From Streptomyces globisporus (GTDB lineage Bacteria > Actinomycetota > Actinomycetes > Streptomycetales > Streptomycetaceae): a DNA stretch of 64,000 bases. Under the pieces are notes generated by a model that saw nothing but the letters and a program-made list of their open reading frames with translations, made no database searches and was not told the origin of the DNA. The translations under genes and the position numbers were made by a program. This document shows, piece after piece, positions 43,967 through 63,564 of the stretch (position 1 is the first letter of the stretch; each line of letters begins with the position of its first letter). The DNA is taken from positions 248,001-312,000 of the forward strand of contig BMTG01000005.1 of assembly GCA_014649555.1 (NCBI GenBank), in the 5' to 3' direction.

Positions 43967-43992
43967 GGCGATGTTTCACGTGAAACATCGCC
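43967..43992. other. parS: parS site 5 within a 26-bp perfect palindrome
   Basis: GTTTCACGTGAAAC at 43973-43986 is the exact centre of a 26-bp perfect dyad, ten bases after the cca stop codon. Confidence 0.95.
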
Positions 43993-43996
43993 GACG

Positions 43997-44048
43997 GGAT
44001 GTGCCGAGGGGCGTTGTTTCACGTGAAACAACGCCCCTCGGCACATCC
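43997..44048. terminator. parS: 52-bp perfect palindrome with parS site 6 at its centre
   Basis: Each 26-base arm begins GGATGTGCCGAGGGGCG. GTTTCACGTGAAAC at 44016-44029 forms the centre. It lies between the convergent cca and MFS genes and would fold into a long RNA hairpin on both strands, so it can serve both as terminator and as ParB site. Confidence 0.85.
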
Positions 44049-44056
44049 ACGACCGG

Positions 44057-45340
44057 CTACTGGTGGGCGTCGGTACGTCGCCAGCGGAACATCGTCACCG
44101 CGACCACCGCGTACAGCACCGAAACGACCGCCAGGACGGTCACCGATCTGCCGTCCGGGGGGAGCATCAGCGCCGCCACCCCCGCGGCGCTCACGAACGC
44201 GACGTTGAAGAGCACGTCGTAGAGCGAGAAGACCCGGCCGCGGTAGGAATCGTCGACCGAGGTCTGGACGACGGTGTCGGTCGCGATCTTCGACCCCTGC
44301 GTCACGACGCCGAGCACGAACGCGGCGATCAGTATCGGGACGGGGGTGAAGGAGAGGCCCAGGGCCGGCACCAGGACCGCCGCCGCCCCGGCGCAGCCCA
44401 CGATCCACCCGTACCGGCCGAGCCGGCCCACCGCCCACGGGGTGAGAACGGCGGCGATGAAGAATCCCGCGCCGGACACCGCGACTGCCAGGCCGAGCAG
44501 GGCCAGCCCGTCGGACTCGGTGTCGGACCAGGCGTAGCGGCACAGCATGAGAACCATCACGGTGAGCGCGCCGTAACAGAAGCGGATCACGGTCATGGCG
44601 GCCAGCGCCTTGGCCGCGTGGCTCCGCTGCGCCAGATGGCGTAGCCCGGCGATGAGCCCGCGGGCGGTGACGGCGAGAGCTGCCCGCAGCCGCATCGGGC
44701 TCTCGTCGATGTCCGGCCCCAGAAGTGTGCGGGGGAGACTCAGAGAGGCCAGCGCGGAGAGCAGGTAGAGCACCGCCCCCAGGAGGACAACCGCTGCGTC
44801 GGACTCGTCGGCGAGCAGTCGAACGACGAAGGCGAGGCCACCTCCCGCGGTGGCCGCCAGGGTGCCCGCGGTCGGCGAGAGGGAGTTGGCGACGACGAGG
44901 CGGTCGGTGTCGACGACCCGGGGCAGAGCGGCGGAGAGACCGGCCAGCACGAAGCGGTTGACGGCGGTGACGCAGAGGGCCGAAGCATAGAAGAGCCAGT
45001 CGGGCACCGAGGCGAGAATCAGCAGGGCCGTGGAGCAGGCCAGGGCGGCCCGCAGGAGGTTCCCGTAGAGAAAGACCTGCCGCCGGGGCCAGCGGTCCAG
45101 CAGCACTCCTGCGAAGGGCCCGATCAGGGAGTAGGGCAGGAGGAGCACGGCCATGGCGGAGGCGATGGCGGCGGCCGACGTCTGCTTCTCCGGGGAGAAG
45201 ACGACGTACGCGGCGAGGGCGACCTGGTAGACGCCGTCGGCGGACTGGGACAGGAGCCGCACGGTGAGCAGGCGGCGGAAGTTCCGCAGGCGCAGCAGGG
45301 TGCGCAGATCACGCGCGACAGACATGGGAGCAAGCGTCAC
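44057..45340 (-). CDS. MFS transporter
   Basis: A 427-residue membrane protein with about 12 helices. The GTG at 45340 or the ATG at 45325 (SVARDLRTLLRLRNFRRLL) may be the start; neither has a good ribosome binding site. The loop 2-3 motif appears as GVLLDRWPRRQVFLYGN, typical of drug exporters of the MFS. Its substrate is unknown. It lies behind the terminator of ino1 and may be transcribed by readthrough. Confidence 0.88.
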   Translation of the reverse strand: MTLAPMSVARDLRTLLRLRNFRRLLTVRLLSQSADGVYQVALAAYVVFSPEKQTSAAAIASAMAVLLLPYSLIGPFAGVLLDRWPRRQVFLYGNLLRAALACSTALLILASVPDWLFYASALCVTAVNRFVLAGLSAALPRVVDTDRLVVANSLSPTAGTLAATAGGGLAFVVRLLADESDAAVVLLGAVLYLLSALASLSLPRTLLGPDIDESPMRLRAALAVTARGLIAGLRHLAQRSHAAKALAAMTVIRFCYGALTVMVLMLCRYAWSDTESDGLALLGLAVAVSGAGFFIAAVLTPWAVGRLGRYGWIVGCAGAAAVLVPALGLSFTPVPILIAAFVLGVVTQGSKIATDTVVQTSVDDSYRGRVFSLYDVLFNVAFVSAAGVAALMLPPDGRSVTVLAVVSVLYAVVAVTMFRWRRTDAHQ

Positions 45341-45341
45341 A

Positions 45342-45386
45342 CACGTCGGGGGTCCGCGGGCGGATTGCCCGGGGACCCCCGACGTG
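45342..45386 (-). terminator. terminator of ino1
   Basis: A 14-bp perfect outer stem (CACGTCGGGGGTCC) and a 5-bp inner stem around GGATT. It directly precedes the MFS start codon. Confidence 0.8.
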
Positions 45387-45471
45387 CGGCAGGAAGAGAT
45401 GAGCGTCTCCGCTCAGTACTCCCGGTGAAGCGGCCGGCGCTTCGGTGGAGCTGTCAGCCGGGAGGGCCGGT

Positions 45472-46554
45472 TCAGCGCTCCGTCTCGCCCTTGATGAACT
45501 TCTCGACGTTCTCGCGGGCCTCGTCGTCGAAGTACTGCACGGGCGGGCTCTTCATGAAGTAGCTGCTCGCGGAGAGGATGGGGCCGCCGATGCCACGGTC
45601 CTTGGCGATCTTCGCCGCACGGACGGCGTCGATGATGACACCGGCCGAGTTCGGGGAGTCCCACACCTCGAGCTTGTACTCCAGGTTCAGCGGAACGTCG
45701 CCGAAGGCGCGGCCCTCAAGGCGCACGTACGCCCACTTGCGGTCGTCCAGCCAGGCCACGTAGTCCGAGGGGCCGATGTGGACGTTGTCCTCGCCGAGCT
45801 CGCGGTCACGGATCTGCGAGGTGACGGCCTGCGTCTTCGAGATCTTCTTGGACTCCAGGCGCTCACGCTCGAGCATGTTCTTGAAGTCCATGTTGCCGCC
45901 GACGTTCAGCTGCATGGTGCGGTCCAGGATGACACCGCGGTCCTCGAAGAGCTTCGCCATCACGCGGTGCGTGATGGTGGCGCCCACCTGGGACTTGATG
46001 TCGTCACCGACGATCGGGACACCGGCCTCGGTGAACTTGTCCGCCCACTCCTTGGTGCCGGCGATGAAGACCGGGAGGGCGTTGACGAACGCGACCTTGG
46101 CGTCGATGGCGCACTGCGCGTAGAACTTCGCGGCGACCTCGGAACCGACGGGCAGGTAGCAGACGAGAACGTCGACCTGCTTGTCCTTGAGGATCTGGAC
46201 GATGTCGACCGGGGCGTCCGTGGACTCCTCGATCGTCTCGCGGTAGTACTTGCCGAGACCGTCGTGGGTGTGGCCGCGCTGGACAGTTACGCCCGTGTTC
46301 GGCACGTCCGCGATCTTGATGGTGTTGTTCTCGCTGGCGCCGATGGCGTCCGCGAGGTCGAGGCCGACCTTCTTCGCGTCGACGTCGAAGGCGGCGACGA
46401 ACTCGACGTCGCTGACGTGGTAATCGCCGAACTGGACGTGCATCAGACCGGGCACCTTGCCGGCCGGATCGGCGTCCTTGTAGTACTCGACGCCCTGCAC
46501 CAGCGAGGCGGCGCAGTTGCCCACGCCTACGATGGCTACGCGAACCGAACCCAT
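45472..46554 (-). CDS. ino1: inositol-3-phosphate synthase
   Basis: A 360-residue enzyme starting at ATG 46554, with GGGAGC upstream. The nucleotide-binding motif is [15 protein letters not shown] (near the N-terminus). Other conserved parts are [31 protein letters not shown] and [21 protein letters not shown] (split here by the Asn-Met). It converts glucose 6-phosphate to inositol 3-phosphate for mycothiol and phosphatidylinositol. It follows the PadR gene by 59 bases, so the regulator probably controls it. Confidence 0.96.
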
Positions 46555-46613
46555 TCCGGTTGCTCCCTGTGTAATCGGTGTTTCCGATGAAGTCGCCGCG
46601 GAGTGCGATGACT

Positions 46614-47321
46614 TCACTTGGCGGTGTCGTCGGACGGATCCGGCGGGGTGTTGTCCCGGCGCCGGGGCAGGCCGCCCGTCTCTCCAGGTGTGTCCTGCTG
46701 AGCAGAGCCCTCGGGCGCGGATCGTCGCCGATCCCGTCCCGACCGCTCGCTCTCGATGAGCTCGTTCAGCCAGCGCACTTCGCGCTCCACGGACTCCATG
46801 CCGTGCCGCTGCAGCTCAAGTGTGTAGTCGTCGAGTCGTTCACGGGTGCGGGCGAGAGAGGCGCGCATCTTCTCCAGGCGCTCCTCCAGCCGGCTGCGCC
46901 GGCCTTCGAGCACGCGCATTCGCACATCGCGTTCGGTCTGGCCGAAGAAGGCGAAGCGCGCTGCGAAGTGCTCGTCCTCCCAGGCGTCGGGACCGGTGTG
47001 CGACAGCAGCTCCTCGAAGTGCTCCTTACCTTCTGCCGTCAGCCGGTAGACGATCTTCGCCCGGCGTCCGGTCAGTGAGGAGGAGGAAGCGGTCGAGCGT
47101 CCGGTGACCGGCGCGGTGTCCACCGGGTCACCGGCGGGCTCCTCGATCAACCAGCCGCTGGCAACCAGCGTCTTGAGGCAGGGGTAGAGGGTCCCGTAAC
47201 TGAACGCACGGAAGATCCCCAGCGAGGTGTTGAGGCGTTTGCGCAGCTCGTAGCCGTGCATCGGCGATTCGCGGAGCAGGCCGAGAACGGCGAACTCGAG
47301 GATGCCGGAGCGTCGGCTCAC
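46614..47321 (-). CDS. PadR family transcriptional regulator
   Basis: A 235-residue protein starting at GTG 47321, preceded by AGGAGGAGG. The winged helix starts at residue 6 ([20 protein letters not shown], then RKRLNTSLG and [19 protein letters not shown]). A Ser/Thr insert and a long C-terminal coiled coil ([20 protein letters not shown]) follow, as usual for PadR subfamily 1. The tail is charged. Its own promoter holds a 31-bp palindrome with ATGT and ACAT elements, the hallmark of PadR operators. It is likely to repress itself and ino1. Confidence 0.92.
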
Positions 47322-47389
47322 CGGTGCCTCCTCCTTCTCCCGCTGCTTCGGTCGGCACGGTCCACCGGAATCACCGGCGTACTTATGCC

Positions 47390-47420
47390 GTGCTGATGTA
47401 TCGACTCGATACATCAGCAC
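47390..47420. promoter_or_regulatory. 31-bp palindromic operator upstream of padR-ino1
   Basis: Two perfect 15-base arms (GTGCTGATGTATCGA) flank one central base, 69 bases upstream of the PadR start. The arms contain ATGT and ACAT, 11 bases apart. The surrounding gap (47322-47721) is divergent between padR and the PBP gene and has no gene I can support. Confidence 0.7.
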
Positions 47421-47721
47421 GATAGATCGGCTGGTCCTGTTCGACAAGGGTGACCTTCGTGAGCGGCGTCACATCGGTAATTCCCAGGGCTCGACTTGCG
47501 TTGTTTGGGGTGAAGTTCGGCCCTAGGCGGGTTTTGACCGTGCGTAGTCTGTGCGGCATGCAGACCACCGGGAACCGCGAGACGCTGACGCGCGTCACTC
47601 ATCGCGGACTGCCGGATGTACTGCGGATGAGCCTTCCGCAGGGGCTTGTCCGTAATTCGGGGGGACCGGATCTCAACTGCCGCTTCCAGGCGCTCTCGCC
47701 TGCCCGAGGAGTAGTCGTTCC

Positions 47722-50481
47722 ATGAGCGAGCACCGTCGCAAATCGCCGCAGCCACAGGGTGGCGGGCGTGCCGCGGCCAGACGAGCCGCCCAGCAGTCGG
47801 CCGGACGCAGAGCCGCCCCGTCACGCAGAGCCACTTCCGCATCACCTTCCGAATCGCCGTCCGAGTCGTACGGCGAGGAGCGCCAGTACGGCAGCCGCGC
47901 CGAGGCCCGCCGCGCGGCTCAGCGTGGCGGCCGACGCCGGGGTGCCGACGCCGGGGGCCCTGGCGCGGGCGGCGGTGGCGGTCGGCGGCGCGGTGGCGGC
48001 GGGGGTGCCGATGGTCCGGGCGGCCGTGGACGCGACGACGGCGGCCCCGGCAAGAAGCGGATGATCGACTACCCGCGCTACGGCAAGTACGGGTTCCGTC
48101 GCTGGGTGCCCTCGTGGAAGCTGGTCTCGGGGCTCTGTATGGGGTTTCTCGCCCTGTTGATGGGCGTGGCGGGCATCTCGTACGCCTTGGTGGCCAAGCC
48201 GGACATCAACAAGACGGCCCAGGCTCAGAACAACGTCTACTACTGGGCCGACGGCACGCCGATGGTCGCGACCGGTGGTGCGGTGAACCGCCAGATCCTC
48301 AAGTACGAGCAGATCCCGGAGGCGATGCGCAACGCCGTGATCTCCGCCGAGAACAAGAGCTTCGAGTCGGACCGCGGCATCGACCCGATGGGCATCGGGC
48401 GCGCAGTGTTCAACATGGCCACGGGTGGTGAGACCCAGGGTGGGTCGACCATCACCCAGCAGTACGTCAAGAACTCCAGGCTCTCGCAGGACCAGACGTT
48501 CACCCGGAAGTTCAAGGAACTCTTCATCACGCTCAAGGTGGCCGGTGAGGAGCCTAAGGAAGAGGTGATGGCCGGCTATCTCAACGTCTCGTACTACGGA
48601 CGTGGAGCTTCCGGTCTCCAGGCAGCCGCCCGCACCTACTACAACAAGGATGCCGGCGAGCTGGACCCGAGCGAGTGCGCCTTCCTCGCCACCCTGCTCA
48701 AGGGCGCGAGCTACTACGACCCCGCCGGCGCGCCCGACATCGACAAGGACAACGCGACCGAGGAGAAGAACACCGAGCGCGCCAAGGACCGGTGGAAGTG
48801 GATCCTTGACGAGCAGGTCAAGGACGGGAGGATGACGGCGGCGGAGCGCGCCAAGTACACGAAGTTCCCGATGCCGCAGCCGAAGGCGCAGGACACCAAG
48901 CTGAGCGGCCAGACCGGTTACCTGGTGGACCTCGCCAAGAAGTACTTCCTCGCGAACAACGACAAGGGCATCACCGCCAAGGAACTCGAACTGGGCGGCT
49001 TCGAGATCCACACCACCTTCCAGGAGAAGCGGGTGAAGCAGCTCGAAGCAGCGGTGAAGAAGGTCTACGACGCCAAGATCAGGCCCAAGGAACGTCCCAA
49101 GACGGACACGCACGTCGAGTTCGGCGGGGCGTCCGTGGACGCGAAGACCGGTGCCATCATCGCCACGTACGGCGGTCAGGACGCCACCACGCACTTCACG
49201 AACAACGCCGACGCCACCGGCGCCCAGGTCGGTTCGACCTGGAAGCCCTTCGTGCTGGCGGCGGCCATGCAGTACGGCGTCCGCGATCCGGCCGGTGGTC
49301 CGGAGCAGAGCGAGTCCCAGCGCACCCAGATCTCGCCGAAGAGCATCTACAACGGCGACGACGGCCTGCGGATCAGGGACTACACCGGCAAGATCTGGCT
49401 CAACAAGGACGGCGAGGAATGGCGTCAGACCAACGACGGCAACTACAACCATGGTGAGATCGACCTGCGGAAGGCCATGGAGCAATCCGCCAACTCCCCG
49501 TTCGTGCAGCTCGGCATGGATGTCGGTACGGACAAGGTCAAGGACGTCGCCGTCGCCGCCGGCCTGAAGGACGACACCTTCATGGCGGACGCGTCCGTCC
49601 CCTCGTTCTCCATCGGTACCTCGTCGCCGAGTGCCATCCGCATGGCGGGTGCCTACTCCACCTTCGCCACGAGCGGCCAGCAGAACGACACCTACTCGGT
49701 CACCGAGGTGAAGCAAGAGGGTGAGGTCGTCTTCCAGCACAAGAAGAAGCCCAAGCGCGCCTTCAGCCCGATGATCGCCGACAACGTCACGGACGTCCTG
49801 AAGAACGTCGTGGAGAACGGGACGGGCAAGCCCGCCCGTCTGGAGGGCCGTGAGGCCGCGGGCAAGACCGGTACGACCGACGGCAACCGGTCCGCCTGGT
49901 TCGTCGGGTACACCCGGCAGATCTCGACCGCCATCAGCATGTTCCGGCTCGACGACGACGAGACGAACAAGACGCGCGAGTTCGAGAAGATGTTCGGAAC
50001 GGGTGGTGAGGAGAAGATCCACGGAAACTCGTTCCCGGCCTCCATCTGGCACGACTACATGACTGGGGCGATGAAGGGTAAGAAGGACATGCCCTTCCCC
50101 GAGCCCCAGGACCCGGGCGAGGTCGTATGGGGCGGTGGCGCGGTCAGCCCCAGCCCGACCCCCAGCCCCACGCCCTCGGAGACGCCCTCCGAGGAGCCGA
50201 GTCCGACGCCGACGCCGACGCCGACCACCCCGAGTCCGACGCCGACGCCGACCAAGACCTGCGGCATCTTCGACCCGAACTGCCAGGAGGCCAACGGCGG
50301 GGCGAACGCGGGGGCGGACGGCGGAGGCCAGAACGGAGGGGCCGACGGCGGCGCTGACAACGGCGGGGCCGACGGTGGTGGCGACAACACCGGAACGACC
50401 GACGGCACGGACAACGGCGGAGCCCAGGGAGCCAACGGCAATCCGGGCGGAACCGGCTCCATCTGGGGCAACTCCGGATAG
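47722..50481 (+). CDS. class A penicillin-binding protein (transglycosylase/transpeptidase)
   Basis: A 919-residue bifunctional PBP starting at ATG 47722. Residues 1-125 are basic and Arg/Gly-rich (cytoplasmic). A membrane anchor follows at about 135-155. The GT51 domain contains the catalytic Glu in ISAENKSFESDRGIDPMG and QGGSTITQQYVKN. The transpeptidase has STWK (nucleophile Ser), SAN and KTG. The tail is a Pro/Ser/Thr then Gly/Asn/Asp-rich stretch of about 140 residues with one Cys pair (CGIFDPNC). It polymerises and cross-links peptidoglycan outside the membrane. Confidence 0.96.
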   Translation: MSEHRRKSPQPQGGGRAAARRAAQQSAGRRAAPSRRATSASPSESPSESYGEERQYGSRAEARRAAQRGGRRRGADAGGPGAGGGGGRRRGGGGGADGPGGRGRDDGGPGKKRMIDYPRYGKYGFRRWVPSWKLVSGLCMGFLALLMGVAGISYALVAKPDINKTAQAQNNVYYWADGTPMVATGGAVNRQILKYEQIPEAMRNAVISAENKSFESDRGIDPMGIGRAVFNMATGGETQGGSTITQQYVKNSRLSQDQTFTRKFKELFITLKVAGEEPKEEVMAGYLNVSYYGRGASGLQAAARTYYNKDAGELDPSECAFLATLLKGASYYDPAGAPDIDKDNATEEKNTERAKDRWKWILDEQVKDGRMTAAERAKYTKFPMPQPKAQDTKLSGQTGYLVDLAKKYFLANNDKGITAKELELGGFEIHTTFQEKRVKQLEAAVKKVYDAKIRPKERPKTDTHVEFGGASVDAKTGAIIATYGGQDATTHFTNNADATGAQVGSTWKPFVLAAAMQYGVRDPAGGPEQSESQRTQISPKSIYNGDDGLRIRDYTGKIWLNKDGEEWRQTNDGNYNHGEIDLRKAMEQSANSPFVQLGMDVGTDKVKDVAVAAGLKDDTFMADASVPSFSIGTSSPSAIRMAGAYSTFATSGQQNDTYSVTEVKQEGEVVFQHKKKPKRAFSPMIADNVTDVLKNVVENGTGKPARLEGREAAGKTGTTDGNRSAWFVGYTRQISTAISMFRLDDDETNKTREFEKMFGTGGEEKIHGNSFPASIWHDYMTGAMKGKKDMPFPEPQDPGEVVWGGGAVSPSPTPSPTPSETPSEEPSPTPTPTPTTPSPTPTPTKTCGIFDPNCQEANGGANAGADGGGQNGGADGGADNGGADGGGDNTGTTDGTDNGGAQGANGNPGGTGSIWGNSG

Positions 50482-50523
50482 CCGGACCGCCGGCCGCGCC
50501 CCTCAGGGGCCGGCTCAGCAGAG

Positions 50524-50567
50524 CGGCGAGGGCCGCCGCACCCACCCGGGTGCGGCGGCCCTCGCCG
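50524..50567 (+). terminator. terminator of the PBP gene
   Basis: A 20-bp perfect GC-rich stem (arm starts CGGCGAGGGCCGCCGCACCC) with a 4-base loop, 42 bases after the stop. Confidence 0.88.
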
Positions 50568-50650
50568 CGTTCCGGCATCCCGCGCACTCATCCCGTGTCC
50601 CCCGAGCGGTCCTTGCCCCGGACACAGCCCCGTACGGCAGGATGTGCGGC

Positions 50651-52153
50651 ATGCCAAGCCCCAGCGCAGAAGACACGAGCGTGCACCAGGAACCGCCCGT
50701 CGTGCGGCCAACCGATCAGGACGAGGTCGCGGCGGCCGGCAGCGAGCTGTTCGGTGGCCGGGTGGGGCACTGGGCGCGGCTGGGCGACGGTCCGTTCACG
50801 CCCGTACGCGTGGTCGCGCTGGTCATGATCGGGATGTTCGCCCTCGGCATGGTGCAGAAGATCCCCTGCTACGAGTGGGCCTGGTTCCGCGGTGCCACCT
50901 CGCAGTACACGCACGCCTGCTACTCCGACATTCCGCATCTCTTTCTGGGGCGCGGGTTCGCCGACGGCCTCGTGCCGTACTTCGACCGGCTGAGCGGCGA
51001 TATGCAGTACCTGGAGTACCCCGTGCTGACCGGGGTGTTCATGCAGGTCGCGGCCTGGCTGACGCTGACGCCCGACAGCGACCCCATCCAGCAGCGCGAG
51101 CAGATGTACTGGATGGTCAACGCGGGCATGCTGATGATCTGCGCGGTGGTCATCGCCGTGTGCACCGTCCGCACGCAGCGGCGCCGCCCCTGGGACGGTC
51201 TGATGGTCGCGCTGGCACCCGCGTTCGTCCTCACCGCGACCATCAACTGGGACCTGCTGGCCGTCGCCCTGACGGCCGCGGCGATGCTCATGTGGTCCCG
51301 GGGCCGGGTGCTCGCCTTCGGAATCCTCATCGGCCTGGCCACGGCGGCCAAGCTCTACCCCGTCCTGCTGCTCGGCCCGCTCCTGGTGCTCTGCTGGCGG
51401 GCGGGCCGGTGGCGCGAGTTCGGGACGACCCTGCTGGGCGCGGGCGCGGCCTGGCTGGTGGTGAACCTGCCGGTGATGATCTTCGCCCCGGAGGGATGGC
51501 GGAAGTTCTACACCTTCAGCCAGGAGAGGCCGATCGACTTCGGTTCGTTCTGGCTGATCATCACGCAGCGCACCGGCAAGCCCATCGACGTGGAGACGGT
51601 CAACACCGCCTCGGTCGTCCTCATGGTCGTCTTCTGCGCGGGCATCGCCGGTCTGGCGCTCTCCGCGGCCCGCAGGCCGCGCTTCGCCCAACTGGCGTTC
51701 CTGGTGGTGGCCGCGTTCATCCTGACGAACAAGGTCTACTCACCGCAGTACGTGCTCTGGCTGATTCCGCTGGCCGTCCTGGCCAGGCCGCGCTGGCGCG
51801 ACTTCCTCATCTGGCAGGCCTGCGAGGTCATGTACTTCCTCGGGATCTGGTCCTACCTCGCCTACACCAGCGGCGGGGACAAGCACCAGGGGCTGCCCCA
51901 GGAGGGCTACCAGGTCGCGATCGCCCTGCACCTGCTGGGCACGCTGTATCTGTGCGCGCTGGTCGTCCGCGACGTCCTGCAGCCGGAGAAGGACCTGGTG
52001 CGCGCGGACGGGTCGGACGACCCGTCCGGCGGTGTGCTCGACGGGGCTCCGGACACGTTCGTGCTCGCGCCCGAGGCCCGCCAGTCCGGGCACGCGGCTC
52101 GGACGGACGGGCCTCAGGTGGAGTGGGGCGCTGTGCCCACCCGGAACGGCTGA
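50651..52153 (+). CDS. GT87 family polyprenol-linked glycosyltransferase
   Basis: A 500-residue membrane protein starting at ATG 50651 (AGGA nine bases upstream; ATG 50642 is possible). About 10 to 12 membrane helices are visible. Conserved features of the GT87 (DUF2029) family are the extracytoplasmic acidic loop after the first helix, LEYPVLTGVFMQVAAW, and TAAKLYPVLLLGPLLVL. Such enzymes use polyprenyl-phosphate-mannose to build lipoglycans in mycobacteria. The exact product here is not known. It follows a PBP gene, pointing to an envelope role. Confidence 0.9.
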   Translation: MPSPSAEDTSVHQEPPVVRPTDQDEVAAAGSELFGGRVGHWARLGDGPFTPVRVVALVMIGMFALGMVQKIPCYEWAWFRGATSQYTHACYSDIPHLFLGRGFADGLVPYFDRLSGDMQYLEYPVLTGVFMQVAAWLTLTPDSDPIQQREQMYWMVNAGMLMICAVVIAVCTVRTQRRRPWDGLMVALAPAFVLTATINWDLLAVALTAAAMLMWSRGRVLAFGILIGLATAAKLYPVLLLGPLLVLCWRAGRWREFGTTLLGAGAAWLVVNLPVMIFAPEGWRKFYTFSQERPIDFGSFWLIITQRTGKPIDVETVNTASVVLMVVFCAGIAGLALSAARRPRFAQLAFLVVAAFILTNKVYSPQYVLWLIPLAVLARPRWRDFLIWQACEVMYFLGIWSYLAYTSGGDKHQGLPQEGYQVAIALHLLGTLYLCALVVRDVLQPEKDLVRADGSDDPSGGVLDGAPDTFVLAPEARQSGHAARTDGPQVEWGAVPTRNG

Positions 52154-54521: not shown

Positions 54522-54563
54522 CGCGGACCGGTGCGGGTGCCCGGGCACCCGCACCGGTCCGCG
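54522..54563 (-). terminator. 42-bp perfect palindromic terminator
   Basis: Its two 21-base arms (starting CGCGGACCGGTGCGGGTGCC) follow the small membrane protein gene and insulate femX. Confidence 0.85.
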
Positions 54564-55252: not shown

Positions 55253-55543
55253 ATGCGTCACTACGAGGTGATGGTCATCCTCGACCCCGATCTCGAGGAG
55301 CGAGCAGTCTCCCCGCTGATCGAGAACTTCCTCTCCGTCGTCCGTGAGGGCAACGGAAAGGTGGAGAAGGTCGACACCTGGGGCCGTCGTCGGCTCGCCT
55401 ACGAGATCAAGAAGAAGCCCGAGGGCATCTACTCGGTCATCGACCTGCAGGCCGAGCCTGCGGTCGTCAAGGAGCTCGACCGCCAGATGAACCTGAACGA
55501 GTCGGTCCTCCGGACCAAGGTCCTCCGTCCCGAAGTCCACTGA
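55253..55543 (+). CDS. rpsF: 30S ribosomal protein S6
   Basis: A 96-residue protein starting at ATG 55253, eight bases after AAAGGAGGTGG. It begins [19 protein letters not shown] and has [20 protein letters not shown], the S6 signature. It binds S18 on the 30S platform; rpsR is two genes downstream in the same operon. Confidence 0.98.
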
Positions 55544-55617
55544 GCATCTAGCTCAGCGGTTTTCGGGTCCGAGTAGCAGCAAGCAGCCAGAAGCAATCCC
55601 CGCCGAGAGGTTCACCC

Positions 55618-56241: not shown

Positions 56242-56284
56242 GGCAGCTCGTACCCCCACTTCTTGATCACACAGGAGAAACACC

Positions 56285-56521
56285 ATGGCGAAGCCGCCTG
56301 TGCGCAAGCCTAAGAAGAAGGTCTGCGCGTTCTGCAAGGACAAGACCCAGTACGTGGACTACAAGGACACGAACATGCTGCGGAAGTTCATTTCCGACCG
56401 CGGCAAGATCCGTGCCCGCCGCGTCACCGGCAACTGCACGCAGCACCAGCGTGACGTCGCCACGGCTGTCAAGAACAGCCGTGAGATGGCGCTGCTGCCC
56501 TACACGTCCACCGCGCGATAA
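56285..56521 (+). CDS. rpsR: 30S ribosomal protein S18 (zinc-binding form)
   Basis: A 78-residue protein starting at ATG 56285, with CAGGAGAAA upstream. It carries CAFCKDK and a later Cys in NCTQHQ, so it is the zinc-binding C+ form. Streptomyces usually also has a zinc-free paralogue controlled by Zur elsewhere. The segment [15 protein letters not shown] is typical of S18. It pairs with S6. Confidence 0.96.
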
Positions 56522-56539
56522 GGGAAGGGTGACAACAGC

Positions 56540-56986
56540 ATGAAGATCATCCTCACCCACGAGGTCTCCGGCCTCGGTACCGCCGGCGACGTCGTCGACG
56601 TCAAGGACGGGTACGCCCGTAACTACCTGGTTCCGCGTGGCTTCGCCATTCGCTGGACCAAGGGCGGCGAGAAGGACGTGGCGCAGATCCGCCGCGCCCG
56701 CAAGATCCACGAGATCGCGACGATCGAGCAGGCCAACGAGATCAAGGCCAAGCTCGAGGGCGTGAAGGTCCGTCTGGCTGTTCGCTCCGGCGACGCCGGC
56801 CGTCTCTTCGGCTCCGTGACCCCGGCCGACGTCGCTGCGGCGATCAAGGCTGCCGGTGGTCCCGACGTCGACAAGCGTCGCGTCGAGCTCGGCTCGCCGA
56901 TCAAGACGCTCGGCGGACACCAGGTGTCCGTCCGTCTGCACCCCGAGGTCGCAGCGAAGCTCGGCGTCGAGGTCGTTGCTGCCTAA
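56540..56986 (+). CDS. rplI: 50S ribosomal protein L9
   Basis: A 148-residue two-domain protein starting at ATG 56540. The N-terminal rRNA-binding domain has [20 protein letters not shown] and [15 protein letters not shown], followed by a connecting helix and the C-terminal domain. It is the last gene of the operon, ended by a strong hairpin 20 bases later. Confidence 0.98.
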
Positions 56987-57005
56987 GGGCAGAGCTCAGC
57001 AGAGC

Positions 57006-57044
57006 CACTGAAGGGCCGCACCCTCTGGGTGCGGCCCTTCAGTG
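57006..57044 (+). terminator. terminator of the rpsF-rplI operon
   Basis: An 18-bp perfect stem (arm CACTGAAGGGCCGCACCC) with loop TCT. Confidence 0.9.
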
Positions 57045-57075
57045 TGTCCGGATGCGCTGCGTTCGCAGGCGCGGT

Positions 57076-57089
57076 GTTTCACGTGAAAC
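57076..57089. other. parS: parS site 7
   Basis: Perfect GTTTCACGTGAAAC between convergent rplI and MATE genes, with no dyad beyond the 14 bases. It lies 23 bases from the next parS (start to start). Confidence 0.95.
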
Positions 57090-57122
57090 GAGGGTGCTGT
57101 TTCACGTGAAACAGCACCCTCG
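57089..57122. terminator. parS: 34-bp perfect palindrome with parS site 8 at its centre
   Basis: Arms of 17 bases (CGAGGGTGCTGTTTCAC) with GTTTCACGTGAAAC at 57099-57112. It lies 23 bases beyond the MATE stop and would form its terminator hairpin. Confidence 0.8.
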
Positions 57123-57145
57123 GAACAGGCTGCGGATCCAGCTGA

Positions 57146-58483
57146 TCAGCGCGTAGCCCCGGTCACGATCCACCGGCCCGACCGGGTACGCAGCCAGAGC
57201 GTGATCAGGCGGACGGTCATCATCAGCGTCATCGCCCACCAGAGTGCGGTGAGTCCGCCGCCGAGAGTGGGCACCAGGAGCGCGACAGGAGCGAAGACGG
57301 CGAGCGTCGCCAGCATCGCCCAGGCGAGATAGCGTCCGTCACCGGCTCCCATCAGGACGCCGTCCAGCACGAAGACCACGCCGGCGATCGGCTGCGAAAC
57401 CGCCACGACCAGGAGCGCGGGGAGCAGGGCGTCCTTCACCGAGGGGTCGCTCGTGAAGAGCGGGATGAACAGCGGCCGGGCGAGCACGATGAGGACGCCG
57501 AGCACGATGCCGCAGCCGATACCCCACTCGACCATGCGGCGGCAGGCCTCGCGCGCGCCCTTCTCGTCGTCCGCCCCGAGATAGCGGCCGATGATCGCCT
57601 GACCTGCGATGGCGATGGCATCGAGCGCGAAGGCGGTCAGGCTCCAGAGGGAGAGGACGATCTGGTGCGCGGCGATGTCGACGTCCCCGAGCCGGGCGGC
57701 GACGGCGGTGGCGATCATCAGGACGGCGCGCAGGGACAGGGTCCGGATCAGCAGGGGTACGCCGGCCCGCGCACTGGCCCTGATCCCGGCCGCGTCGGGG
57801 CGCAGGGACGCACCGTGCTTGCGTGCGCCGCGGATCACCACGACAAGATAGACGGCGGCCATACCCGCCTGGGCGATCACCGTTCCCCACGCGGATCCTG
57901 CGATGCCGAGCCCGGCGCCGTAGACGAGTGTCACGTTGAGGATGGCGTTCGCCGTGAAACCGCCGATGGCGACGTAGAGCGGCGTGCGGGTGTCCTGGAG
58001 CCCACGCAGTACGCCGGTGGCGGCGAGCACGACGAGCATGGCGGGGATGCCGAGGATGGAGATCCTCAGATACGTGATGGCGTACGGGGCCGCGGTGTCG
58101 GACGCGCCGAAGACGTCGACGAGCCAGGGTGCCGTCGGGATCGCGAGGGCGACGACGGCGGCTCCGAGCAGAAGGGCGAGCCAGATGCCGTCCATACCCT
58201 GGCGGATGGCGGCGGGAAGGTCGCCCGCCCCCACGCGGCGGGCGACTGCCGCCGTGGTTGCGTAGGCGAGGAAGACGAAGATGCTCACGGCCGTCATCAG
58301 GAGGGCTGCGGCGATGCCGAGGCCGGCCAGCTGCGGGGTGCCGAGGTGGCCGACGACGGCGCTGTCGACCATCACGAACAGAGGCTCGGCGACGAGTGCG
58401 CCGAACGCCGGGACGGCAAGGGCGATGATCTCGCGGTCGTGTCGTCGGCGGCCGTTCTTCGGGGTCGCGGAGGCCTGGGTCAT
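57146..58483 (-). CDS. MATE family efflux transporter
   Basis: A 445-residue protein with 12 membrane helices starting at ATG 58483. The two-fold repeat of the MATE family is visible: IALAVPAFGALVAEPLFVMV starts the first half and RAGVPLLIRTLSLRAVLMIA the second. LAGLGIAAALLM and DIAAHQIVLSLWSLTAFALD are typical of the DinF-like group. It probably exports cationic compounds using a sodium or proton gradient. Substrate unknown. Confidence 0.92.
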   Translation of the reverse strand: MTQASATPKNGRRRHDREIIALAVPAFGALVAEPLFVMVDSAVVGHLGTPQLAGLGIAAALLMTAVSIFVFLAYATTAAVARRVGAGDLPAAIRQGMDGIWLALLLGAAVVALAIPTAPWLVDVFGASDTAAPYAITYLRISILGIPAMLVVLAATGVLRGLQDTRTPLYVAIGGFTANAILNVTLVYGAGLGIAGSAWGTVIAQAGMAAVYLVVVIRGARKHGASLRPDAAGIRASARAGVPLLIRTLSLRAVLMIATAVAARLGDVDIAAHQIVLSLWSLTAFALDAIAIAGQAIIGRYLGADDEKGAREACRRMVEWGIGCGIVLGVLIVLARPLFIPLFTSDPSVKDALLPALLVVAVSQPIAGVVFVLDGVLMGAGDGRYLAWAMLATLAVFAPVALLVPTLGGGLTALWWAMTLMMTVRLITLWLRTRSGRWIVTGATR

Positions 58484-58940
58484 GGGGTCAATCTAATCTT
58501 CCACAGGTAAGAGATGCAATTGACTAGCAGTCCTTACTTGCGCCCCGCTGGGTCCCACCTTCCCGCGCCGTTTGCGGTGATCTTGAAATGAGGGCGGAAG
58601 TTTTTCTCCCCCACAGTCAGTGGACGGAGAACATGCAGGTCAGGGTGGTCGCGGTAGGAGCGCTATGAGTTTGTCCACAGTGCTGTCCCCCGGTCCGTGC
58701 ACAGGTTCGGCAGGGTTCTCCACAGCATCTGGTCCGTCGTCCACATGCCCTGTGGATAACCAGATTGGCTGACGGTGCCCAGGGGCCTACCGTGGTGCGG
58801 CGCCCGCACTCCGTTCCGGCACCGGAATCCACCGAACCAGACGCGCCGGAAGTGGAGTCGGGCGACCTGTTTGTCGGTGCCGTGCCGTAAGAAAGAGTGG
58901 CACGGCTAGGTCCGCGATGCGGACGGGAGGAGGCGGCCCG
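58484..58940 (+). promoter_or_regulatory. dnaB upstream region with four DnaA boxes
   Basis: This divergent gap holds no gene. Within 89 bases lie TTGTCCACA (58671-58679), TTCTCCACA (58716-58724), TCGTCCACA (58737-58745) and TGTGGATAA (58751-58759). The first and last are perfect boxes. They start 182-270 bases upstream of the dnaB start. Promoter hexamers are not obvious. Confidence 0.75.
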
Positions 58941-60416
58941 GTGAGCATTCCCGAGCCTTTGGACGACCCCTGGACCGAGACCGGTCCCGGGGACCGTCTG
59001 CCTGTCTCCCGTCAGCGTCGCGGGGACCGCAAGGGGCGCGAGGACCGCCATGACCGCGGCTCGGACGAGGCCTGGGACAGCGGCGCCCCCAGCTTCGAAC
59101 GGGTGCCGCCCCAGGATGTCGACGCCGAGCAGTCGGTCCTCGGCGGCATGCTGCTGTCCAAGGACGCGATCGCCGAGGTCGTCGAGGTCATCAAGGGCCA
59201 CGACTTCTACCGCCCCGCCCACGAGACCGTCTTCACGGCGATCCTCGACCTCTACGCCAAGGGTGAGCCGGCCGACCCCATCACGGTCGCCGCCGAACTG
59301 GTGAAGCGCGGAGAGATCACCAAGGTCGGCGGAGCACCGTATCTGCACACCCTGGTGCAGTCCGTGCCCACCGCGGCCAACGCCTCGTACTACGCCGAGA
59401 TCGTCCACGAGCGGGCGGTGCTGCGGCGGCTGGTCGAGGCGGGCACGAAGATCACGCAGATGGGATACGCGGCGGACGGGGACGTCGACGAGATCGTCAA
59501 CTCCGCGCAGGCCGAGATCTACGCGGTCACCGAGCAGCGCACCAGCGAGGACTACCTCCCCCTCGGCGACATCATGGAGGGCGCGCTCGACGAGATCGAG
59601 GCCATCGGCTCGCGCAGCGGCGAGATGACCGGTGTGCCGACGGGCTTCACGGACCTCGACGCCCTGACGAACGGTATGCACCCCGGCCAGATGATCGTCA
59701 TCGCGGCCCGCCCCGCGATGGGCAAGTCCACGCTCGCGCTGGACTTCGCGCGCGCCGCGTCGATCAAGAACAACCTGCCCAGCGTCATCTTCTCCCTCGA
59801 AATGGGGCGCAACGAGATCGCGATGCGTCTGCTGTCGGCCGAGGCCCGGGTGGCCCTGCACCACATGCGGTCCGGCACGATGACGGACGAGGACTGGACG
59901 CGGCTCGCGCGCCGGATGCCCGAGGTCTCGGCCGCTCCGCTCTACATCGACGACTCCCCCAACCTGTCGATGATGGAGATCCGCGCGAAGTGCCGTCGGC
60001 TGAAGCAGCGCAACGACATCAAGCTCGTGATCATCGACTATCTGCAGCTGATGCAGGCCGGGGGGTCGAAGCGGTCCGAGAGCCGACAGCAGGAAGTTTC
60101 GGACATGTCCCGAAACCTGAAGCTGCTGGCCAAGGAGCTGGAGGTCCCGGTGATCGCGCTCTCGCAGCTGAACCGTGGCCCCGAGCAGCGTACGGACAAG
60201 AAGCCGATGGTGTCCGACCTGCGTGAGTCCGGCTCCATCGAGCAGGACGCCGACATGGTCATCCTGCTCCACCGCGAGGACGCGTACGAGAAGGAGTCAC
60301 CGCGCGCGGGCGAGGCCGACATCATCGTCGGCAAGCACCGTAACGGCCCGACGGCCACCATCACCGTGGCCTTCCAGGGCCACTACTCCCGCTTCGTGGA
60401 CATGGCGCAGACCTGA
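58941..60416 (+). CDS. dnaB: replicative DNA helicase DnaB
   Basis: A 491-residue helicase starting at GTG 58941, with GGGAGGAGG ten bases upstream. The N-terminal domain begins at about 52 (PPQDVDAEQSVLGGMLLSKD). The RecA-like motor has Walker A ARPAMGKST, Walker B KLVIIDYLQLM and the motif SDLRESGSIEQDADMVILLH. There is no intein, unlike mycobacterial DnaB. It unwinds DNA at the fork; the DciA-like protein encoded at 18361 is its likely loader. Confidence 0.97.
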   Translation: MSIPEPLDDPWTETGPGDRLPVSRQRRGDRKGREDRHDRGSDEAWDSGAPSFERVPPQDVDAEQSVLGGMLLSKDAIAEVVEVIKGHDFYRPAHETVFTAILDLYAKGEPADPITVAAELVKRGEITKVGGAPYLHTLVQSVPTAANASYYAEIVHERAVLRRLVEAGTKITQMGYAADGDVDEIVNSAQAEIYAVTEQRTSEDYLPLGDIMEGALDEIEAIGSRSGEMTGVPTGFTDLDALTNGMHPGQMIVIAARPAMGKSTLALDFARAASIKNNLPSVIFSLEMGRNEIAMRLLSAEARVALHHMRSGTMTDEDWTRLARRMPEVSAAPLYIDDSPNLSMMEIRAKCRRLKQRNDIKLVIIDYLQLMQAGGSKRSESRQQEVSDMSRNLKLLAKELEVPVIALSQLNRGPEQRTDKKPMVSDLRESGSIEQDADMVILLHREDAYEKESPRAGEADIIVGKHRNGPTATITVAFQGHYSRFVDMAQT

Positions 60417-60426
60417 CGGGCTCAGC

Positions 60427-61161
60427 TCAGCCCTTCGCCAGGGCGCGGCTGAGGAGCGGGAGCAGGCGGTCCCAGTGGAGCCGCAGGCCGGCCGGGTCGA
60501 AGGCGTCGGTGTCCGACATGGTGAAGCCGTGGACGGTGCCGGAGTAGATCTCCGAGGTGTAGGTGACCCCTGCGGCTTCCAGGGATTGGTTCAGCTCGCC
60601 GAGTGCCTCGGGGGTGATGTCCGTTGCGGCATGGCCGAAGTGGACGTCGGCGGTGAGACGGAGCAGGCTCTCGGGCCCGTCGGCGGCGACGGGGGCGTGG
60701 AACGCGGCGAGGGCGGCCACCTGGCCGGGGTGGGCCGCGGCGGTGCGGGTCGCGAGGAGGCCACCGATGCAGTAGCCGGTCACCGCGACCGGTCCCGCGC
60801 CGACCTCGGGCTGGGCCGTGAGAAAGCCGAGGTAGGCGTCGGCGTCGCTCAGGACGCGTTCGGGGGTGAGCTCCTTGATCAGGGGCATCAGCCGGGCGAC
60901 GAGCGCGGAACGGTCCGCTTCTCCGATGTGTCCGGGAAGGTCGATGATCGGCGTGGGCCCTTCCCGGTAGAAGAAGTTGGGGACGAGCACGTAGTACCCG
61001 TGCCCGGCCAGTTCGGCGGCCAGGTCCCGGATGACGGGCCGAATGCCGAAGGCGTCCGGGTTCATCAGCACCCCGGGATGCTGCTCGCCGTGGTCGGGGT
61101 AGGCGGCGAAGGCGTCGGCCAGGCCGTCGGTGGTGGGGATCTGCACGGTCTTGGTGGGAAT
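60427..61161 (-). CDS. dienelactone hydrolase family protein
   Basis: An alpha/beta hydrolase with the nucleophile Cys in VTGYCIGG and the catalytic His in SGTVHGFTM; the Asp lies in the VHFGHAATD region. This Cys-His-Asp triad is typical of dienelactone hydrolases. The start is uncertain. An ATT at 61161, eight bases after AAAGGAAG, gives the expected N-terminus (PTKTVQIPTTDG; 244 residues). The nearest ordinary start is GTG 61146 (239 residues). No aromatic-degradation genes are near, so the substrate is open. Confidence 0.85.
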   Translation of the reverse strand: MPTKTVQIPTTDGLADAFAAYPDHGEQHPGVLMNPDAFGIRPVIRDLAAELAGHGYYVLVPNFFYREGPTPIIDLPGHIGEADRSALVARLMPLIKELTPERVLSDADAYLGFLTAQPEVGAGPVAVTGYCIGGLLATRTAAAHPGQVAALAAFHAPVAADGPESLLRLTADVHFGHAATDITPEALGELNQSLEAAGVTYTSEIYSGTVHGFTMSDTDAFDPAGLRLHWDRLLPLLSRALAKG

Positions 61162-61277
61162 GGCGGATCTTCCTTTTCGATGGTTCGTCGCGCTCGGGCG
61201 TTCGCCGGAGCGATGGGCGGTGTGTTCAACAGGTATGCGTGTGCGGCTAGTTACCTCGTACACCCATACTGGCGGTC

Positions 61278-62063
61278 GTGACCTTGATGACACCACCCGA
61301 TCCGGAGCGTGGCGCCCTGCATGTGGCCGGGCGGCGGCTCTCCTTCCTCGACTTCGGCGGGCCGGGCCGTCCTCTGCTGGCCCTGCACGGGCACTTCGGG
61401 GAGGGGCGTACGTTCACGCGTCTCGCCGGTGAACTGGGTGGCTCCTGGCGGGTGGTCGCCCTCGACCAGCGGGGCCATGGTCGTTCCGACCGCACCGCCG
61501 ACTACTCCAGGTCCGGTTACGTCGAGGACGCCGCCGCCGTGCTGGAGCATCTGGGGATCGGCGGCGCGGTCGTGCTAGGACACTCCCTCGGCGGTGTCAA
61601 CGCCTACCAACTCGCTGCCCGGCGACCCGGGCTGGTGGAGGCGCTGATCGTCGAGGACATCGGGGCCGAGGTCGACGACGATCTGTCCTTCGCCCTGTCC
61701 TGGCCGCACCGCGCCCCGACACGGTCCGGGCTGCTGGGCGGGCTCGGCGCGTCGGCCGCCTACCTCATGGACGCCGTGCGCGAACATCCGGATGGCTGGG
61801 GCCTGGCCTTCGACCCGCAGGACATGAACGTCTCGCAGCAGTTCCTCAACGGAGACCACTGGGACGACTGGCTGGGTGCGGACTGCCCGGCCCTGCTGGT
61901 CCGTGGCAGCCGCAGCACGGTTCTGCACGCCGAGCATGCGCGAAGGATGGCCGCACGTCGTGCTCGTACCAGCCTGGTCGAGCTCCCCGCCGGGCACACC
62001 GTGCACGACACCGTCCCGGTGGACTTCGCCGCTGCCGTCAGGGGATTCCTCGACTCTCTGTGA
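61278..62063 (+). CDS. alpha/beta-fold hydrolase
   Basis: A 261-residue enzyme starting at GTG 61278 (or ATG 61287). The nucleophile elbow is GHSLGG, the oxyanion region LHGHFGEG and the catalytic His in PAGHTVHDTVP. CATACT lies eight bases upstream of the GTG with no ribosome binding site, which suggests a leaderless message. It resembles general esterases or lactonases; nothing narrows the substrate. It is divergent from the dienelactone hydrolase gene. Confidence 0.88.
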   Translation: MTLMTPPDPERGALHVAGRRLSFLDFGGPGRPLLALHGHFGEGRTFTRLAGELGGSWRVVALDQRGHGRSDRTADYSRSGYVEDAAAVLEHLGIGGAVVLGHSLGGVNAYQLAARRPGLVEALIVEDIGAEVDDDLSFALSWPHRAPTRSGLLGGLGASAAYLMDAVREHPDGWGLAFDPQDMNVSQQFLNGDHWDDWLGADCPALLVRGSRSTVLHAEHARRMAARRARTSLVELPAGHTVHDTVPVDFAAAVRGFLDSL

Positions 62064-62127
62064 CCATGCCGGGGCGTTCCCGGAAATGGGTTCGTCAAGG
62101 AGCGGCCGGTCGGATAAGGGTGGGACC

Positions 62128-63504
62128 ATGACTTCTCTCGGTGAAGACCTGCTCCCCAGTACCCGGCGCGCCCTGCTGCACCGTATCGCCGTCGCGCAGC
62201 GGGACGGGCGTGCGCCGTCCCTTGTGGCCGCGGTGGGGCGGCAGGGGCGTACGGCCTGGAGCGGGGCGCGTACGTGTGTCGACGGGCATGCTCCCGACGC
62301 CGATACGCAGTACCGGATCGGCTCGATCACCAAGACGTTCACGGCCGTTCTGGTGCTGCGGCTGCGGGACGAGGGCCTGATCGACCTGGACGACCCGCTG
62401 GAGAAGCACCTTCCTGGTACGGGCGTGGGCGGGGCGACCGTCTTTCAGCTGCTGTGCCACAGTGCGGGGCTGGGGGCCGAGACGCCGGCCCCCTGGTGGG
62501 AGCGGACGCCCGGCAGCCTGCGGCCGGAGATCGCCGATGTCCTGGGCGACCGGCCGCAGATGCATCCGGCCGGGCATCGTCACCACTACTCCAACCCTGG
62601 TTACACCCTGCTCGGTTCGCTGGTGGAAGCGGTTCGAGGTGTCTCCTGGGAGGAGGCGCTGCGCCGGGAGATCCTGGAACCGCTGGGCATGCACCGGACG
62701 ACGAGCGCCCCCGTGGTACCGCACGCGGGCGGCTGGGCCGTCCACCCCTGGGCCGATGTGATGCTGAGCGAGCCCGCCGAGGACCTCGGGATCATGGCGC
62801 CCGCCGGTCAGCTCTGGTCTACCGCGGAGGATCTGCTGCGGTTCGCCGCCTTCCTGGCCGGGGGCGACGACCGGGTCCTCTCGGCCTCCTCCGTACGGGA
62901 GATGCGGACGCCCGCCGCCCCGGTCGAGATCGGCGGCAGCGGTTACGGTCTCGGGCTCCAGATCGTCGGGGGCGAAGGGCGTGTGCTCTTCGGGCACTCG
63001 GGATCGCTTCCCGGATTCGTCGCCGGCCTCTGGGTGTGCGAGGAGGAGGACGTGGCGGCGGTCGCCCTCGCCAATGTCACCTCCGGGCTGCCCGCCGCGA
63101 CGGTGGCCGCCGAACTCCTGAACATCGTCGTCGAGGCCGAGCCACGGATCCCGGAGCCCTGGCGTCCGCTGCCCGAGGTGGACGACGAACTGCTCGCGCT
63201 GACCGGCGTCTGGCACTGGGGCACCAGCACGTTCACGCTGAGCCTCACCGGGGACCGGGGCCTCCAGCTCACGCCGCTCGGCGGGAAGGGGCGCGGCGCT
63301 GCCTTCACGTACCGGCCGGACGGCACCTGGGCGGGCCAGAACGACTACTACGCGGGGGAGACCCTGCGCGTCGTACGCAAGGACGACGGCTCGGTGGACC
63401 ACCTCGACCTCGGCTCGTTCGTCTTCACACGGGAGCCGTACGAGGCGGGGGCGGCCGTGCCCGGTGGCGTGGACGCGGAGGGCTGGCGCGGGCTCGGCGG
63501 CTGA
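62128..63504 (+). CDS. serine hydrolase (beta-lactamase class C / esterase family)
   Basis: A 458-residue protein starting at ATG 62128, with AAGGGTGGG upstream. The class C motifs are SITK (nucleophile Ser and Lys in YRIGSITKTFTAVLVLRL), YSN (HHYSNPGYTLLG) and HSG (FGHSGSLPG). No signal peptide is present, so it is cytoplasmic. A C-terminal beta-barrel-like domain (from about 360) follows, as in many esterases and D-amino-acid peptidases. A true beta-lactamase is unlikely without export. Confidence 0.9.
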   Translation: MTSLGEDLLPSTRRALLHRIAVAQRDGRAPSLVAAVGRQGRTAWSGARTCVDGHAPDADTQYRIGSITKTFTAVLVLRLRDEGLIDLDDPLEKHLPGTGVGGATVFQLLCHSAGLGAETPAPWWERTPGSLRPEIADVLGDRPQMHPAGHRHHYSNPGYTLLGSLVEAVRGVSWEEALRREILEPLGMHRTTSAPVVPHAGGWAVHPWADVMLSEPAEDLGIMAPAGQLWSTAEDLLRFAAFLAGGDDRVLSASSVREMRTPAAPVEIGGSGYGLGLQIVGGEGRVLFGHSGSLPGFVAGLWVCEEEDVAAVALANVTSGLPAATVAAELLNIVVEAEPRIPEPWRPLPEVDDELLALTGVWHWGTSTFTLSLTGDRGLQLTPLGGKGRGAAFTYRPDGTWAGQNDYYAGETLRVVRKDDGSVDHLDLGSFVFTREPYEAGAAVPGGVDAEGWRGLGG

Positions 63505-63524
63505 GCTCCGGGCCCCGGAGCGCA

Positions 63525-63564
63525 GAGAGCGGGTGGTGTTTCACGTGAAACACCACCCGCTCTC
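63525..63564. terminator. parS: 40-bp perfect palindrome with parS site 9 at its centre
   Basis: Arms of 20 bases (GAGAGCGGGTGGTGTTTCAC) with GTTTCACGTGAAAC at 63538-63551, midway between two convergent genes whose stops are 66 bases apart. It is both the evident bidirectional terminator and a ParB site. Confidence 0.88.

Follow-up and report, generated by a model that had tools for sequence, protein, structure and literature searches.

In Streptomyces and related genera of the Streptomycetaceae, parS sites near oriC that lie between convergent genes or just past a stop codon are, judging from sequence, probably built into the 3'-end hairpins of their neighbors. The layout of these sites, their specificity for gene ends, the paired evolution of their arms, and their alternation with ordinary hairpins from gap to gap were all observed; we infer selection on an RNA hairpin (a terminator and/or a protector of 3' ends) whose DNA is also used by ParB. 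The simplest origin would be the reuse of a palindrome that was already in place. In the apex layout, GC-rich arms around parS would yield a long RNA stem capped by GUUUC-ACGU-GAAAC, and the DNA palindrome, being identical on both strands, could serve both convergent genes. In the foot layout, a GC-rich hairpin adjoins parS, and GUUUC would supply closing pairs and a short U-tract.

The window, a 64,000-nucleotide stretch of the Streptomyces globisporus genome, contains nine exact copies of the parS 14-mer GTTTCACGTGAAAC; 0.06 matches with at most two mismatches are expected by chance (100 shuffles). Within the genome, 17 of 18 parS sites fall inside 240 kb of one contig, together with parA, parB, and dnaA. 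With the consensus palindrome and the parAB/oriC clustering of chromosomal parS, these are predicted ParB sites. They are the same kind of site, with the same side bias, as the Streptomyces parS cluster of PMC8743542, which places 79.86% to the right of oriC across 20 genomes. The main text of that paper has no match for terminator, convergent, or intergenic, and the literature consulted describes centromere-site placement mainly as distance and side relative to oriC.

The first-pass annotation had reported parS-centered perfect palindromes of 26, 52, 34, and 40 bp in convergent gaps and one of 34 bp around parS4, and we confirmed their lengths and coordinates. Our window scan added a 20-bp palindrome (29550-29569, parS2) and found no extension beyond the site at parS1, parS3, or parS7. 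In a 464-kb portion of the contig, ten perfect palindromes reach 26 bp or more, and six of these are centered on parS. Because perfect-arm counting overlooked one-mismatch dyads (e.g., L241 16175), we added a mismatch-tolerant apex score (match +1, mismatch -2); random flanks of 71% G+C reached a score of 5 in 0.35% of 100,000 trials. Symmetry at parS stood well above that of the contig's other palindromes.

The first-pass annotation's count of six of nine parS sites in convergent gaps was reproduced, as was its statement that every convergent gap >30 bp on the dnaA/right side carries parS (4/4); two shorter convergent gaps right of dnaA (27 and 10 bp) have none. Convergent gaps from gene 23312 rightwards comprise 460 bp in total. 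Over 80 loci, parS density per kb was 8.26 in convergent gaps, 1.10 in tandem gaps, 0.025 in divergent gaps, and 0.050 in coding DNA, with 4 edge sites left out and with genes called by a home-made codon-model caller (a stricter successor of an earlier home-made one) that sets some ends wrongly, e.g., 3 pcnA/MFS-gap sites classed as coding. These densities also fit a model in which hairpins are selected mainly to hold RNA polymerase off ParB-loaded parS. Among contig convergent gaps of 30-250 bp, a hairpin or apex was present in 7 of 8 with parS vs a hairpin in 17 of 36 without, which leans the same way but is not significant (p = 0.054). Against this model, many parS sites have no hairpin, and the available text of PMC10681803 describes B. 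subtilis ParB clusters and E. coli RNA polymerase working together in vitro, the clusters posing no block to the polymerase. We consider such insulation quite improbable.

A survey of 105 parS sites in seven genomes (4 of the 14 sites of G001 left out) tied the layouts to gene ends. The apex layout occurred at 16/41 convergent sites, 4/15 tandem sites within 60 nt of a stop, and 4/17 coding sites, and at 0/28 tandem sites further from a stop and 0/4 divergent sites. With coding sites set aside, the apex layout was present at 20/56 sites at gene ends vs 0/32 elsewhere (Fisher 3e-5, sites of related species not being independent). Abutting hairpins were found at 10/41 convergent and 4/15 near-stop tandem sites, where shuffled flanks expect 0.35 and 0.10; 15/41 and 7/15, respectively, had neither layout. 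Counting against specificity, one or the other layout also occurred away from gene ends (6/17 coding, 1/28 far tandem, and 1/4 divergent sites). In other actinomycete families, two of 58 parS sites (30 loci) had arms of 6; as 0/58 were typed convergent, this set offers no fair comparison for the gene-end rule outside the Streptomycetaceae. Loci L250-L252 were left out of the analysis.

The sites near parA are these:

29267 to 29280: parS1, upstream of parA, no dyad
29553 to 29566: parS2, 10 nt ahead of the parA start, 20-bp dyad
29577 to 30500, + strand: parA (Pfam AAA_31)
30569 to 31576, + strand: parB (Pfam ParB_N, HTH_ParB, ParB_C)

Arms of at least 6 were present at 0/136 parA-upstream sites, so arms are unnecessary for parS to persist. 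At the parA_2 site, pairing was 62% in register vs 65% one base off; conserved flanks alone may thus look symmetric.

Two apex sites lie between pcnA and an MFS transporter gene:

42515 to 43957, + strand: pcnA / CCA tRNA nucleotidyltransferase
43967 to 43992: 26-bp perfect palindrome with parS5 (43973-43986) at its apex, starting 9 nt past the pcnA stop
43997 to 44048: 52-bp perfect palindrome with parS6 (44016-44029) at its apex, starting 8 nt past the MFS stop (- strand)
44057 to 45325, - strand: MFS transporter

As RNA, the two palindromes fold at -17.0 kcal/mol (z -6.6) and -50.0 kcal/mol (z -13.9). In relatives, Watson-Crick pairing at the parS5 position was 74% in register and 22-38% when slid; at the parS6 position it was 90% and 36-44%. 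Relatives' pcnA/MFS gaps with parS carried an apex dyad in 66/72 and an ordinary hairpin in 3/72 (of 80 loci, the 8 whose pcnA gap could not be used were dropped). In other genera of the Streptomycetaceae, where pcnA gaps were taken irrespective of the next gene's orientation and 1 of 28 genomes had no locus, 11/27 gaps had an apex and none of those 11 an ordinary hairpin, which was present in 9 of the remaining 16 (Fisher 0.003; without two hand-placed loci, apex 9/25, Fisher 0.008). Outside the family, parS occurred in 0/24 pcnA gaps and an ordinary hairpin in 2/24.

At two loci, L035 and L041, the parS core is mutated but the arms are retained (apex 17 and 21). This bears on the idea that the arms enlarge the ParB site, or act as a DNA cruciform aiding ParB or SMC loading: dyads centered on parS agree with it, but the persistence of arms at these two mutated cores does not, nor do arm letters that vary among species, the absence of arms from most parS sites, and the tracking of gene 3' ends. 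We regard it as highly improbable.

Between sister pairs, paired arm changes affected 17/200 and 8/221 positions at the two pcnA-gap sites; controls gave 0/266 (parA 0/61 and 0/137, trxA 0/68), and parS4 3/134. The paired changes at the two sites comprised 14 transitions and 18 transversions, compared with 59 and 56 among single changes, showing none of the transition enrichment that a path through G-U pairs would favor. The transition/transversion contrast was tried as a separator of selection from templating and failed to discriminate. Templating here means palindromes that grow by themselves, template switching at the parS hairpin during replication copying the arms without selection on RNA. 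The share of transversions (18/32) speaks for it, as does the coding dyad of parS4:

34074 to 35042, - strand: anti-sigma-like protein carrying parS4 (anti-sigma matches under family cut-offs), adjoining SigM (35039-35701)
34740 to 34773: 34-bp coding palindrome with parS4 (34750-34763), in-frame reading VSRET

The palindrome is present as first annotated; it is coding, confined to one clade, and eroding, and the gene-end reading is not supported there. An apex score of 5 is reached by 13/80 such sites in relatives. Against self-templating, dyads at the same 14-mer are few in gaps with another hairpin (trxA 1/64, rplI/MATE 2/25) and absent from tandem gaps far from stops (0/28). On its own it is an unlikely explanation; it may be the mutation supply, with selection deciding where dyads persist.

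The gaps with another hairpin are these:

32528 to 32561, + strand: hairpin of the GNAT/trxA gap, its 3' foot being GTTT of parS3
32558 to 32571: parS3, foot/tail layout
32598 to 32930, - strand: thioredoxin, trxA (Pfam Thioredoxin)
56540 to 56986, + strand: rplI
57007 to 57043, + strand: ordinary hairpin past rplI; most relatives carry one of this type
57076 to 57089: parS7, without palindromic extension, adjoining the parS8 hairpin
57089 to 57122: 34-bp palindrome with parS8 (57099-57112) at its apex
57146 to 58483, - strand: MATE transporter

A stem beside parS3 had been noted at 32531-32558; the hairpin is real, but it spans 32528-32561 and includes GTTT of parS, and the tail after it is GUUUC of parS itself. 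Among relatives' trxA gaps with parS (2 of 66 dropped for having none), 58/64 had an ordinary hairpin and 1/64 an apex; in some, a half-parS pairs with parS. Of the 25 resolved rplI/MATE gaps with parS, 23 had an ordinary hairpin and two, one being the source genome, an apex dyad; the source genome aside, this makes 1/24 resolved loci, and G002 has one as well. With its own rplI hairpin nearby and an apex rare in relatives, parS8 is not supported as a shared segregation and gene-end site. Pooled, the two gaps had apex dyads in 3/89. Alternation inside single gaps was not significant, so the case for alternation rests on four gaps.

The last apex site follows a beta-lactamase-fold gene:

62128 to 63504, + strand: beta-lactamase-fold gene
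63525 to 63564: 40-bp palindrome with parS9 (63538-63551) at its apex, past that gene
63571 to 63999, - strand: GNAT acetyltransferase, truncated where the window stops

Its RNA folds at -35.6 kcal/mol (z -11.0). For this gap, 16/26 loci had the apex form, with mostly different arms, and 10/26 gaps with parS lacked both an apex dyad and any ordinary hairpin of 9 (8 of 60 loci across this and the rplI/MATE gap were dropped as not resolved, and 1 of 27 here as lacking parS).

The broader proposal that segregation and gene-end signals share DNA is partly supported, by symmetry, the tie to gene 3' ends, paired changes, the general absence of dyads beside other hairpins, and arms kept at two mutated cores; it is not supported at parS4 and parS8. 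We found no description of parS within terminators in the open-access literature consulted. The nearest known case, in the available text of PMC1852404, is that of DNA uptake signal sequences inside terminators of Neisseria and Pasteurellaceae, likewise a dispersed DNA signal of other function within a terminator-type hairpin. Those hairpins consist of closely spaced complementary copies, whereas in parS hairpins one self-palindromic ParB site, a centromere signal, forms the tip or foot, and the arms are unrelated to it; no stem of two complementary signal copies was found, the single parS being the loop end. Our reading offers a local placement rule (gene 3' ends, often within a hairpin) and a reason for the many Streptomyces parS copies in convergent gaps. 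It also opens conflict between transcription and segregation to experiment on individual palindromes, in which the arms can be altered with parS left intact. A stronger version, in which termination at the hairpin removes RNA polymerase from the place where ParB loads and parS-bound ParB in turn alters termination, seems to us rather unlikely; if true, segregation and gene-end control would be coupled around oriC in Streptomyces.

GC-rich hairpins follow the pcnA and MFS stops by 8-9 nt, a feature of canonical intrinsic terminators. Transcript 3' ends in Streptomyces have stable GC-rich stems with few U (PMC8914203, PMC8269248, PMC12207403, in the text available), and the main texts of these papers have no match for parS, ParB, or segregation. 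Their U-poor hairpins resemble those described here, which differ in having a ParB site as loop or foot. Weighing against the gene-end reading, a U-tract is missing from most strand ends: across the four convergent palindromes, 6/8 of these ends have 1-2 U in the next 10 nt, so most would be U-poor hairpins that may terminate transcription or just protect 3' ends. Four U in 10 nt occur at two strand ends, 63564 (+) and 57089 (-); at the latter the next bases, TTTCACG, and hence the U, belong to parS7.

Exact-match searching identified nine copies of the ParB site GTTTCACGTGAAAC in the window (parS1 to parS9, numbered left to right), and 17 of the genome's 18 exact parS lie on the same contig as the window. 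From parS1 to parS9, perfect dyad symmetry extends beyond the 14-mer by 0, 3, 0, 10, 6, 19, 0, 10 and 13 bp per arm; these counts yield the palindromes listed around parS in the first-pass annotation and bear out their lengths. For gene calling in the window we used a home-made codon model, and names assigned from Pfam and NCBIfam were the following:

DnaA
ParA
ParB
thioredoxin (trxA)
SigM and an anti-sigma-like protein
MurJ
pcnA, CCA tRNA nucleotidyltransferase
MFS transporter
rplI
MATE transporter
DnaB
beta-lactamase-fold protein
GNAT proteins

Based on these calls, convergent gaps hold six of the nine parS, and to the right of dnaA each of the four convergent gaps longer than 30 bp contains at least one, as had been proposed.

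We scored flanking symmetry with a mismatch-tolerant apex score (match +1, mismatch -2); a score of 5, counted as an apex dyad, occurred in 0.35% of random flanks of equal composition. A 464-kb part of the contig contains 10 perfect palindromes that are 26 bp or longer; six are centered on parS, so the symmetry is greater than at random terminators, one of the two points on which the first-pass annotation had made its reading depend. A 42-bp perfect palindrome without parS lies at 54522-54563, in a tandem gap with a stop codon 18 nt away.

Relatives were represented by the best 80 of 537 candidate loci around murJ (78/80 titled Streptomyces), which together contain 473 exact parS. In these best 80 loci, arms of at least 6 flank 69/119 sites typed pcnA|MFS, 1/71 sites in the GNAT|trxA gap and 0/136 sites between parA and the gene preceding it. 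With the mismatch-tolerant score, the dyad was retained in the pcnA gap (114/158) and rarely at parA (5/141), trxA (1/80), parS4 (13/80) or other sites (1/14). The letters of the arms differ and their symmetry is constant, as in CGGTCAT...ATGACCG, GGGTGAT...ATCACCC and GCGCTCAT...ATGAGCGC. Among non-overlapping sister pairs (murJ divergence ≤8%), 17/200 and 8/221 positions at the two pcnA-gap sites had changed on both sides and still paired, alongside 51 and 17 one-sided changes; the control values were 0/61 and 0/137 at parA, 0/68 at trxA and 3/134 at parS4. At the two pcnA-gap sites, 74% and 90% of positions pair in register, and a slide of one arm by 1-3 bases leaves 22-38% and 36-44%, respectively; the corresponding values are 46% in register versus 24-33% at parS4 and 62% versus 32-65% at the parA_2 site. 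Template switching could be a source of the paired transversions in the arms; however, it does not by itself account for the rarity of dyads in the trxA and rplI gaps. Loci L035 and L041 of relatives have a substitution in the parS core at the parS6 position, with the arms still intact.

Placement was assessed for 105 parS in seven genomes (all sites in six; 10/14 in genome G001). Apex dyads occurred at 16/41 convergent sites, as opposed to 0/28 tandem sites beyond 60 nt from a stop codon and 0/4 divergent sites; they were also found at 4/15 tandem sites no more than 60 nt past a stop and at 4/17 coding sites, of which, by position, three are at the parS4 place and one spans the end of the pcnA neighbor. 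A second layout, in which a hairpin abuts parS, was present at 10/41 convergent and 4/15 near-stop tandem sites (shuffled-flank expectation, 0.35 and 0.10), and at 2/17 coding, 1/28 far tandem (parS2) and 1/4 divergent sites. With coding sites excluded, either layout was found at 34/56 gene-end sites versus 2/32 others. The abutting layout is common in the trxA gap, where the GTTT of the closing pairs comes from parS; the hairpin's 5' arm contains, in several species, the half of parS that matches it. An outlying parS on another contig (L170 1570, contig C14) is located 16 nt past a stop codon and is flanked by arms of 8. By our own gene calls, the TGA inside parS (TCA on the other strand) is the stop of a neighboring gene at L239 1588 and of the MFS gene in 3 of the best 80 of 537 loci.

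Among gaps with parS, pcnA|MFS had apex dyads in 66/72 (an ordinary hairpin in 3 and neither feature in 6) and beta-lactamase-fold|GNAT in 16/26 (ordinary hairpin in 2, neither in 10); rplI|MATE had an apex dyad in 2/25, one of them this genome, and an ordinary hairpin in 23, and trxA gaps had an ordinary hairpin in 58/64 and an apex dyad in 1/64. Inside single gaps, this alternation was not significant; because the contrast lies mainly among four gaps and the species are related, p-values serve as guides only. In other genera of the family, the place after pcnA carried an apex dyad at 11/27 loci, none of the 11 with an ordinary hairpin, versus 9/16 of the others with one; removing two loci that were located via their parS leaves nine apex loci versus the same 9/16. 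Five of these other-genus loci (L307, L309, L310, L312 and L315) have two parS within a single arm pair, and outside the family parS was found in this place in 0/24. At L324, two one-mismatch variants replace the exact parS after pcnA, with short arms on at least one. Genome G002, which is outside the counted set, has in its rplI|MATE gap (L181 1560) an apex dyad whose arms are 14 long; repeats of the arm sequence come next and may show how arms originate.

The predicted RNA stems of the four palindromes in convergent gaps have energies of -17.0, -50.0, -27.7 and -35.6 kcal/mol, with equally stable shuffles in 0/200. Among the 10 nt that follow each of their eight strand ends, 1-2 are U in six cases and 4 in two. 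3'-end mapping in Streptomyces describes hairpins that are long and stable, typically with 3-4 U among 10 nt (PMC12207403). A structured class of 3' ends without the U motif is described in S. griseus (PMC8914203), and S. clavuligerus has a class that lacks U (PMC8269248). By predicted structure, most of the four palindromes fit the U-poor class and may either terminate transcription or protect 3' ends. The hairpins possibly insulate ParB by shielding it: on the contig, a hairpin or apex dyad is present in 7/8 convergent gaps with parS versus 17/36 without (p = 0.054). The closest precedent in the literature searched is uptake signal sequences within terminators (PMC1852404). In the main texts, "terminator" was unmatched in a report of Streptomyces parS positions (PMC8743542) and in a ParB review (PMC7022226), as were parS and ParB in the three 3'-end papers; we regard parS within hairpins as novel only with respect to the open-access literature searched.

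In the window, the rplI|MATE gap contains a separate hairpin (57007-57043), and on the minus strand the TTTCACG of parS7 directly follows the parS8 hairpin. The coding parS4 palindrome, noted earlier, is present (10 bp per arm); however, its dyad is limited to near relatives and has lost pairing in several. parS4 lies in the gene at 34074-35042, within a variable linker, and its in-frame translation is VSRET in 51/51 loci with the gene called (62 listed); judging from sequence, the centromere site appears to constrain a fast-changing protein linker. parS2 caps an imperfect hairpin (29536-29586; -31.1 kcal/mol, z -5.0) that includes the parA start codon. Its sequence is conserved, without paired changes, and ParB or RNA structure might be linked there to parA expression.
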